Shown: positions 19,315 through 51,436 of the stretch, piece by piece
Layout: every line of letters starts with the position of its first letter
Position numbering within the stretch: the first letter of the stretch is position 1
Assembly (NCBI GenBank): GCA_029556545.1
Contig: JAKQEQ010000181.1
Location: 1-64,000 of the forward strand
Length of the DNA: 64,000 nt
Source: Candidatus Hydrogenedentota bacterium
Lineage (GTDB): Bacteria > Hydrogenedentota > Hydrogenedentia > Hydrogenedentales > JAGMZX01
Direction: 5' to 3'
Notes under the pieces: generated by a model
What the model saw: the letters and a program-made list of their open reading frames with translations, nothing else
What the model was told of the DNA's origin: nothing
Databases searched by the model: none
Position numbers and translations under genes: made by a program

Positions 19315-20235
19315 ATGCGAAAGCGCGGATTCACCCTCATCGAATTGCTCGTTGTGATCGCGATCATCGGCATCCTGGCGGCCATACTCCTGCCGGCGCT
19401 CGGGCGGGCGCGCGAGGCGGCCCGCCGCTCGAGCTGCCAGAACAACCTCAAGCAGATCGGACTGGCCCTCAAGATGTACGCGGGAGAGGACCGCGGCGAA
19501 CGATTCCCGCCCAACAAGTACGCCGACGGCGACGACTGTTCGAGTCCGACCGTGGACGTGATCTGGCAGGGCAACCTCATGTATCCCGAGTACTTGAGCG
19601 ATTTCGCCGTCGTGGTTTGTCCCTCGGATTCCGACGGGTTCTCGCGATATAACGCGGGCCGATGGAACTGCGAGGACGCTTTCGGGAACCGCAGTCTTGA
19701 TAATCCGGTCTGTCCCTGCCAACTGGACAATCTGTCCTATGGCTACTTCGGGTGGGCGCTCACCGAGCGGCATTACATGAAACCGGGCATCAGCGCGAAC
19801 GCGCCCAACTTCCCCACTGACATGGTCGGTATCATGACCTTCCTCGACAGCGGCTTCGTGACGGCGCTGCTGACGCTGGCGGAGCCGTTGATTACGGGCA
19901 ACCCGACGATGCAGCAGGTACAGGAACTGACGGACAGCGACATGGAGATGGTGCATACCACTTACGGCCCCATGCCCGCGTATCGTCTGCGGGAAGGCAT
20001 CGAGCGATTTCTAATTACGGACATCAATAATCCGGCGGCGGCCGCGCAGGCACAAAGCACGATCACCGTCATGTTCGACTTTGTCACGCCCGAGGCGAAG
20101 CATTTCAATCACGTGCCGGGCGGGGCAAACGTGCTCTACCTGGACGGGCACGCCAAATTCATCCGCTACCCGGGCGACCACCCCATCAACCGTGCTTTCA
20201 CGGCCATTATCGCCTTGGTCAACAGCATGGATTAG
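19315..20235 (+). CDS. Type II secretion-like pseudopilin with H-X9-DG C-terminal domain
   Basis: 306 residues. The start [20 protein letters not shown] is a class-III prepilin leader: cleavage after Gly5, Phe+1 methylation and Glu+5. The hydrophobic helix is followed by [20 protein letters not shown] and [12 protein letters not shown]. The C-terminus [11 protein letters not shown] is the H-X9-DG (prepilin-processing-associated) motif, common in Planctomycetes, Lentisphaerae and Hydrogenedentota, where such genes are numerous. AAGGGG lies about 6 nt before the ATG. There are no pilus assembly genes beside it; pilT lies 11 kb away. The exact role is unknown. The lipoprotein at 49208-51436 carries a homologous head domain. 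Confidence 0.9.
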
Positions 20236-37627: not shown

Positions 37628-38224
37628 ATGCCTATACCATTTGAGGACGACCCGCTGGTTACGTTTACGGCGTGGTTCGCCGAGGCGCAAGCCCGAACAG
37701 ACGCCATTCCGGAGCCTACTGCCGCTACGTTGGCCACGGTCGATGCGCTGGGCATGCCGGACGCGCGGATCGTGCTGGTCAAGGCGGCGGATGCACGGGG
37801 GTTTTTGTTCTACACCAACCTGGAGAGCCCGAAAGCGCGACAGCTCGATGCACTGCCCCACGCCGCGTTGTGCTTCTATTGGGGACCGCTCGACCGGCAG
37901 GTGCGCATCCGGGGGCGGATCGAGCGGGTAAGCGACGCCGAGGCGGACGCCTACTTCGCGTCGCGGCCGAAAGAGAGCCAGATTGGGGCGTGGGCCTCGA
38001 AGCAGTCGCAGCCGTTGGTGGGGCGCTTCGAGTTGGAGAAGCGCGTGGCGATTTTCGCGGCAAAGTACGCCATCGGCAAGGTTCCCCGACCGGAGTTCTG
38101 GTCGGGATATCGCCTCGTGCCGGAGGCCATCGAGTTCTGGCTGAAAAGGCCGTATCGGCTTCACGAGCGCCTCTTGTATACCCGCACCGACGACGGCTGG
38201 GATAAGCAGTATCTATACCCGTGA
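37628..38224 (+). CDS. pdxH: Pyridoxamine 5'-phosphate oxidase
   Basis: 198 residues. ATLATVDALGMPDARIVLVK, GFLFYTNLESPKARQL, WGPLDRQVRIRGRIERV and SKQSQPL are FMN-binding motifs. PEFWSGYRLVPEAIEFW and the RLHER...LYP ending are PdxH signatures. It oxidises PNP/PMP to PLP, the cofactor of SerC, AspC and the DegT enzyme of this window. Confidence 0.95.
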   Translation: MPIPFEDDPLVTFTAWFAEAQARTDAIPEPTAATLATVDALGMPDARIVLVKAADARGFLFYTNLESPKARQLDALPHAALCFYWGPLDRQVRIRGRIERVSDAEADAYFASRPKESQIGAWASKQSQPLVGRFELEKRVAIFAAKYAIGKVPRPEFWSGYRLVPEAIEFWLKRPYRLHERLLYTRTDDGWDKQYLYP

Positions 38225-38235
38225 TTGGGGAGAGG

Positions 38236-38270
38236 CTGAAGGCTGTACTACGAACGTAGACCGGCTTCAG
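38236..38270. terminator. Hairpin between pdxH and recJ stops
   Basis: CTGAAG (38236-38241) pairs with CTTCAG (38265-38270), with an inner CTAC-GAAC-GTAG hairpin. It sits between convergent genes and overlaps the recJ stop. No T-run, so a weak candidate. Confidence 0.3.
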
Positions 38271-39970
38271 TGTGTCTTCCCGGCGGGCCGCAGGTCGCGG
38301 AGGACCAGTTGGATCGAGGTTTCGCCGCGGTAGGTGTTGGTCTCGGGCACGAAAGCGATGTCGAGTCTGCGGGGGATCGCGTCGGGGCGGATCCATTCGC
38401 CGAAGCCGAACCCGACGACATCGAAGACCCGGCCACCCTGCCGCACGGCGAACTTGACGTGGCCGCCGTTGAGCGCGCGGGGTGAATGGGGTATCAGGTC
38501 GACCTCCAACGCGCAGAAGAGGGGCGCGGGGTTCTTATTGCCGAAGGGCTCGAGCCGCGCAAGCGCGCTCATGAAGGCGCCGTCGATCTCGCTTAGCGAC
38601 ACGGGACCGTCGATATCAAGGGCGGGCAGGATTTCGTCCGGGCCGAGGCGGCGGAGGGCTTCTGCCTCGAAGGCCTCGCGAAAAGCCGGGATGTTCTCCT
38701 CGCGGATGGTCAACCCCGCGGCGGCCTGGTGGCCGCCGTATTGTTCGAAAGTTCCTACGCACGCGGCGAACGCGCCCACCAAGTCAAAGCCGGGGATGCT
38801 CCGGGCCGAGCCCTTGCCCATGCCGTCGTCGTCGATGGCGATGAGCGTTACCGGGCGGAAGAAGTGGGTTTGCACGCGCGTGGCGACGATACCGATGACG
38901 CCCGAGTGCCAGCCGCGCCGGGCGAGCACGATGGTGCGTTGCTCAGGTGTGAAGACGTGTTCAAGTTCCGCCACAGCCTCGTCGTAGATGCGTTTTTCTA
39001 GGTCGCGGCGCTCGTCGTTGGCGGCGTGAAGTTCGACGGCTAGTTCGCGTGCTTGGGCGGCGTCTTCCTCGAGGAGGAGGCGCAGTGCGGCGCGGCCGTC
39101 GCTGAGGCGGCCCGCGGCGTTGAGCCTTGGGGCCAGATGGAAGCCGAGATGCCGCGCGCGGAGTTCGCGCACGTTGAGTCCGGCCACGTCCGCGAGTTGG
39201 GCAAGGCTGGTGCGGGCGTAACGCGCCATGTGTTTAAGCCCCAGGGCCACGATGACGCGGTTCTCGCCCAGGAGCGGCACGATGTCGGCCACGGTGCCGA
39301 GGGCGGCCAGGTCCAGGTCGTTCCGGCTGCCGTTGAGCGCCTCGGAGAGTTTGAAGGCAATGCCCGCGCCGCACAGGTGAGCCGTGGGCAGGTCCGCGGC
39401 GTCCCGTTTGGGGTTGATCACCGCGACGGCCTCGGGCAAGAGGCCGTCTACGGCGTGGTGGTCCGTAATAATAAGGTCGATCCCGAGTTCCCGGGCGCGG
39501 GCCGCCGCGTCATAGGCGCGCACCCCGTTGTCCACGGTGATGATCAGGGAGACGTCGTCGGCGTGCGCGGCGTCCACGTGCTCGACGCTGATGCCGTAGC
39601 CTTCGACCAGCCGCTGGGGCAGGCCGCAACTGACGCGATCGACGCCGAAGCGCCGCAGTCCCGCGTGCAGGATGGCGCAGGCGGCGATGCCATCGACGTC
39701 GTAGTCGCCGAAGACGCGGACGTGCTCGTTACGTTGGCGGGCGGCGGCGATACGGTCCACGGCGGCGCGCATGTCCGTAAGCGCGAAGGGGTCGCCGAGT
39801 TGTCGAAGCGCGGGATTCAGGAACTCGCGGGCGGCGTCCTCCGAGGTCACGCCGCGGGCGAGCAGGAGTTGGGCCACGACGGGATGCACGCCGACCGTCC
39901 GCGCGAGTTCCATGGCGGCGGCGCGGTCTTGCGCGGCGATGCGCCATAGGCGCTTGGGCGCCCCGTTCAC
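38267..39970 (-). CDS. recJ: Single-stranded-DNA-specific exonuclease RecJ
   Basis: 567 residues. VFGDYDVDGIAACAIL (motif I) and LIITDHHAVDG (DHH, motif III) form the DHH phosphoesterase site, FHLAPRLNAAGRLSDGRAAL follows, and GGHQAAAGLTI is the DHHA1 domain. A C-terminal OB-fold part is present. It degrades ssDNA 5'-3' in recombination and mismatch repair. The start is GTG, overlapping the cmk stop by 4 nt. Confidence 0.96.
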   Translation of the reverse strand: MNGAPKRLWRIAAQDRAAAMELARTVGVHPVVAQLLLARGVTSEDAAREFLNPALRQLGDPFALTDMRAAVDRIAAARQRNEHVRVFGDYDVDGIAACAILHAGLRRFGVDRVSCGLPQRLVEGYGISVEHVDAAHADDVSLIITVDNGVRAYDAAARARELGIDLIITDHHAVDGLLPEAVAVINPKRDAADLPTAHLCGAGIAFKLSEALNGSRNDLDLAALGTVADIVPLLGENRVIVALGLKHMARYARTSLAQLADVAGLNVRELRARHLGFHLAPRLNAAGRLSDGRAALRLLLEEDAAQARELAVELHAANDERRDLEKRIYDEAVAELEHVFTPEQRTIVLARRGWHSGVIGIVATRVQTHFFRPVTLIAIDDDGMGKGSARSIPGFDLVGAFAACVGTFEQYGGHQAAAGLTIREENIPAFREAFEAEALRRLGPDEILPALDIDGPVSLSEIDGAFMSALARLEPFGNKNPAPLFCALEVDLIPHSPRALNGGHVKFAVRQGGRVFDVVGFGFGEWIRPDAIPRRLDIAFVPETNTYRGETSIQLVLRDLRPAGKTH

Positions 39971-49207: not shown

Positions 49208-51436
49208 CTACCCGTTCTTGAGGGCATTGAGCGCGAGCAGGGCCTCCATGAACGTTTCCGTGTAGGGGAACGTGCCCTTCCGGACGAATTCGACGTGCCC
49301 ATCGAAGTACAGGACATTGATGCCGTCCACGTCCCAGACACCGGGGCGCTCCCACATCACGGGCATGGTTGCCTGAACCTTGGCTGCCGAGCGCGGGTCG
49401 TTTATGTCCGTGATGAAGAAGCGATCTATGCCCTCGCGCAAGCGGTATATGGTCTTGCCGTCGGGCGTTTCGAAGTCGCGGTCGAAGCCGGTCCCGTCCT
49501 CAACGGCCTGGAAATACGCGGCAATCCAGGCCAGCCCCTCCTCCTCGTTCGTTACCGCGTGGGACAGGTAGACGTAGCCCTGGTCGTCAATAAGCCGGTC
49601 CGCGTCTTCCGGCGAGGATATCTCAATTACCGGGGCTTCGCCCGCGCCGGGATTCGACAATATTGCCAGATCGAACACGTATTCCGGGTAGATGAGACTG
49701 CCGCGGGCCATGAGATTGCCGGGAACGGGAGAGAGCGCCGGAAACCGCTGGCCCTTGCTTTCGTTGGCGAACATCTTGAAGACTATGCCCCATTGCTTCA
49801 GGTTGTTCTGGCTTGACGAGCGTCGGGCCTCAGCGCGGGCTCGCGTCAGCGCGGGTAGCAGCGCGGTAGTCGCGGGCGCCAGCTTCGGCGACTCAAGAAC
49901 CGCCTGGACCCACGTCGCGTGTTGTTCCAGTGTAAGCGTCACCTGTCCCACGCCGGAGACGGCCGGCACTGCGAGACTGTCGGGCATATTCTCGGCGACG
50001 ACCTGCATAATCTTGTCGCCGTTCAGCCAGAGAAAGCCATGATTCGCGGCGGCGAGACGCTGCGCATCAAGGGCGAAGCCGCCCGGGGGCGCCTCGGCAG
50101 TCAGGCGGTCGATAGCGTCGCGGAGGAGTGCTTCGTCGGTGGCCAGGATGAAGTGCGTCTCGGTGCTTGCCCAGAAGAGCCCGAAATCCAGACCGGGAAT
50201 GTATTCGGCCGCGTACAATTGGCTACCCTTATACTTGTCCTCGGCTGTGCCCACGCCCGTCATTTCGAGGAGACCCTCGATCATTTTGGGACTTGGGCTT
50301 TGCGCGATAACGACGGCCTCCGGCCCCGTTCGCATGTCCACGCCGAGCAATGCGGCGGCGACCTCCTCGCCAAGCACGCCGTCAGCCGTGTTGATCATGC
50401 CTTGGATGATTTGCGCCTCGCCCGCCGCCATCGCGCTCGCGGCAACCGCCTCCTTGATGTAGGCGCGCAGCCCCGGCGACAAGCGCAGCGCCAACACGCC
50501 GAGCGCGTCCGCAGGCAGCCGCGCGGGCAGTTCCAGCGCGCCTGGCAAGGCCTCCTGGGAGGCAACGCCGTGAGCCGCGATCCGCATGCGCATGGCGTCT
50601 TCGCCGATTTCCGTTGCAAGGATCATTTCATCGCAAATCGCGGCAAGCGGGCGGAGCACCGGCCCCGCCAAGTCCACTTGGGACGGCAGGAGCGGGGTGT
50701 CGAACACGTTCTGGAGCGTCGCCGTGTTTATACGGACTACGAATTCCCTGCCCACGGCGGGGAAATCGGGGGTCCCGTAGTGGACCGTGCCCGGTTCGAC
50801 GATCGCGCGGGCGGCGCGTTCGAGGGCCGCCGGAGCATCACCGACGATGGCGTAATCTTTATACAGGATGTACGCGACGTTGGCGTTGTCATATGCGCCC
50901 GTGCAGACCACGTTGCCGACCGCCACCTCGACCGGCGTGCTTTCGGCAAAATCGAGACTTTCGATGAAGCGGTCCGCCGAAGCGATCGGCAGCACCGCCA
51001 GCCCTTGAGACTCACCCATGGGCGATATCGCGATGCCGATGGGCCGCGCACCGTCGAGACCGGTTTTATCGAGGATGTCGGAGAGGGCGGATACGTCGCC
51101 AAGGCCGAGACTCGCACCAATCATCGACAGCACAGACTCCGCGGAGAAACCGGCCGTCCCGGCCAACTGCGCCACGGGTTCCGTGGCGAGATACCGCTCG
51201 AATTGACCGAAAGTGGCGTCAATCGACGGGGCGACCGCGGCGAGCACCGCGTCCTCGGGCGCCATGGCCAAGATGTCATGGACGGTCCAGCCCGTGGCGC
51301 TTGGCGCCGCGGCGGTCGGCGCGGAATCGGCGGGTTGCGCCTCGGGCTTCGCCTGTTGCTCCTTCGAGCACGCGCCTGGTATCAGGATTGCAGTCAGAAA
51401 TAGAATAGTCCATCCAGCGTGTTTCGCGGATCGCAT
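49208..51436 (-). CDS. Large lipoprotein with C-terminal pseudopilin head (H-X9-DG) domain
   Basis: 742 residues. The N-terminus has a signal with lipobox IPGAC-S, so it is a lipoprotein. Residues about 45-520 are an alpha/beta region that looks like the DUF3352 type (repeated LPADALGVLALRL, FILATDEALLRDAIDRL) with no active site that I can name. From about 526, LLPALTRARAEARRSSSQNN then LKQWGIVFKMF and the ending INVLYFDGHVEFVRKG are homologous to the head of the pseudopilin at 19315-20235, including LREGIDRFFITDIND against [15 protein letters not shown]. The prepilin leader and helix are missing. It is therefore a chimera of lipoprotein and pseudopilin head. Function unknown. Confidence 0.8.
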   Translation of the reverse strand: MRSAKHAGWTILFLTAILIPGACSKEQQAKPEAQPADSAPTAAAPSATGWTVHDILAMAPEDAVLAAVAPSIDATFGQFERYLATEPVAQLAGTAGFSAESVLSMIGASLGLGDVSALSDILDKTGLDGARPIGIAISPMGESQGLAVLPIASADRFIESLDFAESTPVEVAVGNVVCTGAYDNANVAYILYKDYAIVGDAPAALERAARAIVEPGTVHYGTPDFPAVGREFVVRINTATLQNVFDTPLLPSQVDLAGPVLRPLAAICDEMILATEIGEDAMRMRIAAHGVASQEALPGALELPARLPADALGVLALRLSPGLRAYIKEAVAASAMAAGEAQIIQGMINTADGVLGEEVAAALLGVDMRTGPEAVVIAQSPSPKMIEGLLEMTGVGTAEDKYKGSQLYAAEYIPGLDFGLFWASTETHFILATDEALLRDAIDRLTAEAPPGGFALDAQRLAAANHGFLWLNGDKIMQVVAENMPDSLAVPAVSGVGQVTLTLEQHATWVQAVLESPKLAPATTALLPALTRARAEARRSSSQNNLKQWGIVFKMFANESKGQRFPALSPVPGNLMARGSLIYPEYVFDLAILSNPGAGEAPVIEISSPEDADRLIDDQGYVYLSHAVTNEEEGLAWIAAYFQAVEDGTGFDRDFETPDGKTIYRLREGIDRFFITDINDPRSAAKVQATMPVMWERPGVWDVDGINVLYFDGHVEFVRKGTFPYTETFMEALLALNALKNG

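Follow-up and report, generated by a model that had tools for sequence, protein, structure and literature searches.

An exported, probably lipid-anchored protein of Hydrogenedentota ends in a pseudopilin head without its prepilin helix, and such heads recur on regulators, lipoproteins and tandem arrays across the phylum

The window, that is, the whole stretch of 64,000 nucleotides from a Candidatus Hydrogenedentota genome (contig JAKQEQ010000181.1) analyzed here, encodes on its reverse strand an envelope protein of 742 aa (49208..51436, -) composed of a signal peptide with a probable lipobox, a secreted domain of about 470 residues, and a C-terminal pseudopilin head. The frame is open and a good Shine-Dalgarno sequence (GGGGAGG) precedes its start. 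The export signal (51368..51436, -) leads to a Cys at position 23 within the motif ILIPGA↓C23, which was read by eye; the non-canonical Pro at -3 puts it outside the strict PROSITE lipobox pattern. The ortholog in a second genome of the genus (L030 in G001) has a canonical lipobox, VGSA↓C, and a paralog in that genome (L046) lacks the Cys. The lipobox described in the earlier note is therefore retained only as probable, on the strength of Cys23 and the ortholog; given the Pro at -3 and the Cys-less paralog, the lipid anchor is not certain and, from these sequences, is not a conserved property. The N-terminal secreted domain (residues 48-519; 49880..51295, -) had been called DUF3352-like. For the window protein itself this resemblance was not significant, as Pfam DUF3352 (PF11832) gave no match in its own genome at E-values up to 10 and the ortholog scored 13.4 bits; it holds for distant relatives, since one of the 10 N-terminal relatives scanned passed the cut-off (L077, 32.5 bits) and two were weak matches.

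The two parts meet at a remnant of a prepilin helix, LLPALTRARAEARRSSSQNN (residues 526-545; 49802..49861, -), and the helix-less head follows (residues 541-742; 49211..49816, -). No prepilin cleavage motif (GFxxxE) was found in the protein by profile or sequence, and only LLPALTRARAEARRSS remains of the hydrophobic N-terminal prepilin helix, about 500 residues into the chain, which bears out the claim that the membrane helix is gone. For comparison, the window also encodes an ordinary H-X9-DG (DUF1559) pseudopilin with a GFTLIE prepilin motif (19315..20235, +). Residues 528-739 of the envelope protein align with residues 27-305 of this pseudopilin (32% identity, E=2e-27, 280 columns; BLASTP), and the alignment starts where the hydrophobic prepilin helix of the pseudopilin ends, with the junction at LLPALTRARAEARRSS. 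A profile–profile comparison (hhalign) of four fused heads with six pseudopilin heads from the same genome gave a probability of 100 and E=2.6e-56. The homology thus spans the whole DUF1559/H-X9-DG head, and the match from about residue 526 proposed in the earlier note is confirmed. Against library profiles the window head falls under the cut-offs, with both matches correctly placed (Pfam DUF1559 PF07596, 17.1 bits against 23.3; NCBIfam H-X9-DG TIGR04294, 18.3 bits against 19), and the ortholog is above the PF07596 cut-off at 26.4 bits. The ending of the H-X9-DG signature is kept in part: DGH is present (residues 712-714; 49295..49303, -), but the H itself is replaced by W701. Likewise, S542 and N595 stand in place of a conserved Cys pair. 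Both the His and the Cys pair are kept in 34 of 34 pseudopilins.

A similarity produced by chance or low complexity, a frameshift, or an assembly join is hardly credible here, and nothing was found in favor of any of them. The similarity extends over 280 columns at E=2e-27, and the G001 ortholog (747 aa, 56% identity over its full length) independently carries the same architecture with the same junction, which rules out both a join and chance. The architecture was also found elsewhere, in the lipobox-less paralog L046, which pairs the same head with a plain signal peptide, and in L083, a distant relative from a genome of another family that also has the head. When the window protein is compared with its G001 ortholog, the N-terminal domains are 55% identical and the heads 68%, and dN/dS is about 0.29 and 0.18, respectively, with dS near saturation. 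The window head is under purifying selection (dN/dS ~0.18, dS near saturation), which argues against a decaying relic.

The N-terminal domain belongs to a family with relatives in 38 of the 68 genomes of the order. Nearly all relatives whose sequence was read stop at the position where the head of the window protein starts, and, the fused proteins excepted, none of those read has a head. A wider search of genome contigs with the N-terminal profile returned one relative, also headless (CALEDJ010000010.1). No relatives were found among viral contigs and plasmids. As nearly all N-terminal relatives read, also those from other families within the order, terminate where the head begins, and as the fused heads group among pseudopilin heads in trees, the head is best read as an addition to an older secreted family, which upholds the domain capture suggested earlier. 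One G001 paralog (L045) is headless, and the DNA downstream of it contains no head remnant. Another headless G001 paralog, in which a short hydrophobic tail replaces the head, spans two contigs (L051:9586-10920 with L052). The window protein and its ortholog share no neighbors; hence NqrF, ApbE, and AccA, which are encoded near the window protein, are probably bystanders. In this comparison no conserved gene neighborhood ties the protein to a pathway, and pilus genes are not encoded with it.

We then surveyed the free heads with a profile of fused heads; searches of the order and of the whole phylum returned the same 68 genomes. At least 61 helix-less head proteins were identified in 33 of the 68 genomes and 8 of the 11 families by this profile and reading of the frames, a lower bound because a part of the matches was read and many genomes hold further unscored candidates. 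All 61 lack a prepilin motif in a pattern search. Helix-less heads outrank GFTLIE pseudopilins in this search, and the strongest identified pilin (~181 bits) lies well under most top matches. Helix-less heads have spread through the phylum as a C-terminal module. The carriers include ECF sigma factors, confirmed by HMM, in which a membrane helix precedes the head (L123, L129, and L131), M56/BlaR1-type proteins (L116, L125, and L127, identified by HMM but below the NCBIfam BlaR1 cut-offs; L116 also matches MlaD and SecD-head), and lipoproteins. Further partners are Sel1 and HEAT plus propeller proteins by HMM, zinc-ribbon/DUF4190 membrane proteins, and one DUF2092-like protein. In a separate 2696-residue frame with an M56-type N-terminus, a close relative of L116, the pseudopilin head lies mid-protein (L115:3171-11258).

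Other head proteins were identified as anti-sigma factors (NF052375, E=1e-11; HMM), and nine anti-sigma-like head proteins are overlapped or abutted by an ECF sigma frame. This arrangement, in which the gene of an anti-sigma factor with a pseudopilin head as its extracytoplasmic domain is overlapped or abutted by an ECF sigma gene, was observed at L155:2415-3967, L156:1171-2948, and seven other loci; in the two named loci the stop and start codons of the two frames overlap. In two apparent operons (L136 and L144), the ECF sigma and anti-sigma-head genes are followed by more small genes each encoding a membrane helix plus a head. The Sigma70 and anti-sigma HMM matches, the hydropathy segment before the head, and the adjoining ECF genes all place the head after the membrane helix of the ECF or anti-sigma factor, as in a sensor. 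By sequence and topology estimate, the head on ECF sigma, anti-sigma, and M56/BlaR1-type proteins sits where the extracytoplasmic input domain is expected. No ECF or anti-sigma version was found in the genome of the window protein, and sensing is therefore argued from the relatives. Seven proteins (L117, L118, L119, L120, L121, L122, and L126) are tandem arrays of three or four heads without a prepilin helix. In a quick tree the array units group across families, first with first and last with last, so the order of the four units appears to be old.

The helix relics of the free heads are graded in length. The longest are near-complete, of 22 residues without GFTLIE (L143, L149, and similarly L135); the DUF4190 and anti-sigma types keep 15 residues behind a foreign membrane helix, the window protein keeps LLPALTRARAEARRSS behind its secreted domain, and the ECF types and arrays have no relic. 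Two frames of the window protein's own genome deserve mention in their own right. The first (L048:660-3734, contig C157), of 1024 residues, begins as a surface protein and continues into a complete GFTLIE pseudopilin, which may reflect a true fusion, the absence of a stop codon, or a start inside the frame. In the second (contig C2, ~38160-39087, L018), the prepilin helix of a pseudopilin lies in another frame and is apparently frameshifted. The quick tree placed the free heads in one clade apart from the pilins (SH-aLRT 95), bar one pilin trimmed at the region edge. A firm single origin was set aside, as a more careful tree required two changes and recovered a single clade in only 34% of bootstraps. 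The AU test did not reject a single clade (p=0.40). A fair statement from these trees and the AU test is therefore that the heads probably detached from pilins once or twice and then spread, given a profile built from fused heads in which intermediate pilins could be under-sampled.

Residue conservation distinguishes the heads further. Two Cys columns, one where the helix ends (SSCQNN) and the other within the CPS motif (CPSD), are both occupied in 81 heads and both empty in 23. Eight heads appeared to break this rule because the first column had been trimmed in extraction, and the seven of these not cut by a contig end show the Cys there in the printed sequence. The pair is thus all-or-none in every scorable head of about 110 in the alignment, and probably forms a disulfide. 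The four heads of the group to which the window protein belongs have all lost the pair, as have most of the anti-sigma group. The window head has lost both the pair and the His, which are kept in nearly all pseudopilin heads and in most free heads, and its function may therefore be changed or reduced. Certain positions are conserved specifically in free heads and not kept in pilin heads (e.g., residues L568, G573, A640, Y641, and P724 in window numbering), and the window head keeps nearly all of the free-head consensus residues. No solved structure was found by sequence among the relatives.

Processing of a pilin and its packing into a pseudopilus require both the prepilin signal and the hydrophobic helix. 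Since both are missing here, the head would be neither processed by prepilin peptidase nor packed into a pseudopilus, and would act as a separate extracytoplasmic domain. By placing a free head C-terminally on an older secreted domain, the fusion would have produced an exported, probably lipid-anchored protein. We consider it probable, from architecture and distribution, that the head is a module for extracytoplasmic binding or sensing that works autonomously, and that the window protein represents the form anchored in the envelope; in each case the head would lie outside the cytoplasm, fold alone, and bind a ligand for sensing or capture. The suggestion in the earlier note that the head acts by itself gains indirect support from the 61 prepilin-motif-less proteins, which carry it in contexts unable to enter a pilus. 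Because the head takes the position of the extracytoplasmic input domain of regulators, its most likely job would be to bind an envelope or extracellular ligand, perhaps the same one as that of the expanded pseudopilins. Regulators would sense this ligand through the head, and lipoproteins and 4-head arrays would bind or present it. We know of no ligand of any DUF1559 head. More tentatively, and with somewhat less than even confidence, the pseudopilin head, a fold borne by dozens of pseudopilins, could have become a general envelope-sensing module in the phylum, whereby ECF, anti-sigma, and M56 proteins would adjust expression to a ligand handled by the pseudopilins, with the lipoproteins and 4-head arrays as dedicated binders.

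The main rival is that free heads dock to the pseudopilus or secretion machinery, through pseudopilin heads or the platform, and so recruit lipoproteins, with the regulators reading the state of the pilus. It is the main rival since the window protein's own genome encodes about 25 pseudopilins whose heads are homologous, besides one prepilin peptidase and several T2SSF platform genes, and pilin heads are known to pack against one another in filaments. However, it is mainly the helix that drives the packing of pilins, and free heads lack it; the conserved residues common to free heads are missing from pilin heads, and the window protein is encoded apart from pilus genes. Docking is, on balance, an unlikely explanation. 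It is still less probable that the window head forms a passive tail without a role in binding, whether as a structural cap or as an evolutionary remnant. The missing Cys pair and H-X9-DG His would fit such a tail, as would the headless relatives, including the G001 paralog whose downstream DNA holds no head remnant; yet the head is better conserved than the N-terminal domain, evolves under the low dN/dS given above, and retains the free-head consensus. The preferred reading thus remains that of a binding or sensing module. The occurrence of the same head on many unrelated proteins across the phylum, including gene-control sensors, suggests that a loose head was reused as a stand-alone binding part outside the cell. 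In heads that escaped from the pilins and became wired to transcription factors, the function of the head is separated from filament assembly, and the ligand can therefore be sought with soluble heads or with a reporter of the cognate sigma factor. In essence, a filament subunit has clearly been dismantled here and put to another use.

DUF1559 pseudopilins are reported, in the parts of the literature consulted, to be strongly expanded in Planctomycetes (PMC2754498, PMC4807772, PMC8567305), where they rank among the most expanded families, with 74 in Rhodopirellula (PMC2754498) and 91, with both SBP_bac_10 and N_methyl domains, in Tuwongella immobilis (PMC8567305). The head described here is homologous to the one that DUF1559 (SBP_bac_10, PF07596)/H-X9-DG (TIGR04294) pseudopilins carry in Planctomycetes and related bacteria; both share the RLREGIERF and DGH motifs and, where the helix ends, SxQNNLKQ. 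Free heads differ from these pseudopilins in lacking both the hydrophobic helix and a motif for prepilin cleavage and in sitting C-terminally on other proteins, and the window head additionally lacks the CPS Cys and the His. A close described case is that of three SBP_bac_10 proteins of T. immobilis, which have a Sec/SPI signal peptide and likewise lack the N_methyl prepilin domain; these belong to a different phylum, and the parts of that report consulted describe no lipoprotein or sigma/anti-sigma fusion and no tandem array (PMC8567305). In the portion of the DUF1559/SBP_bac_10 literature surveyed, no description of head fusions of the kind seen here was found. Relative to that portion, what is known comprises DUF1559 pseudopilins and a few plain-signal SBP_bac_10 proteins (PMC8567305), and the fusions of helix-less heads to regulators and lipoproteins and their arrays are new. 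Regulatory proteins of two known kinds offer parallels in design. The RsgI proteins of clostridia are anti-sigma factors with extracellular carbohydrate-binding or hydrolase domains, so that an anti-sigma factor senses a ligand via an extracellular domain borrowed from proteins that act on that ligand; here, in contrast, the borrowed domains are pilin heads. BlaR1 and MecR1 similarly couple an M56 membrane protease to an extracytoplasmic input domain at the C-terminus, but in the proteins of this phylum the beta-lactam-binding domain is replaced by domains that end in, or include, a pilin head.
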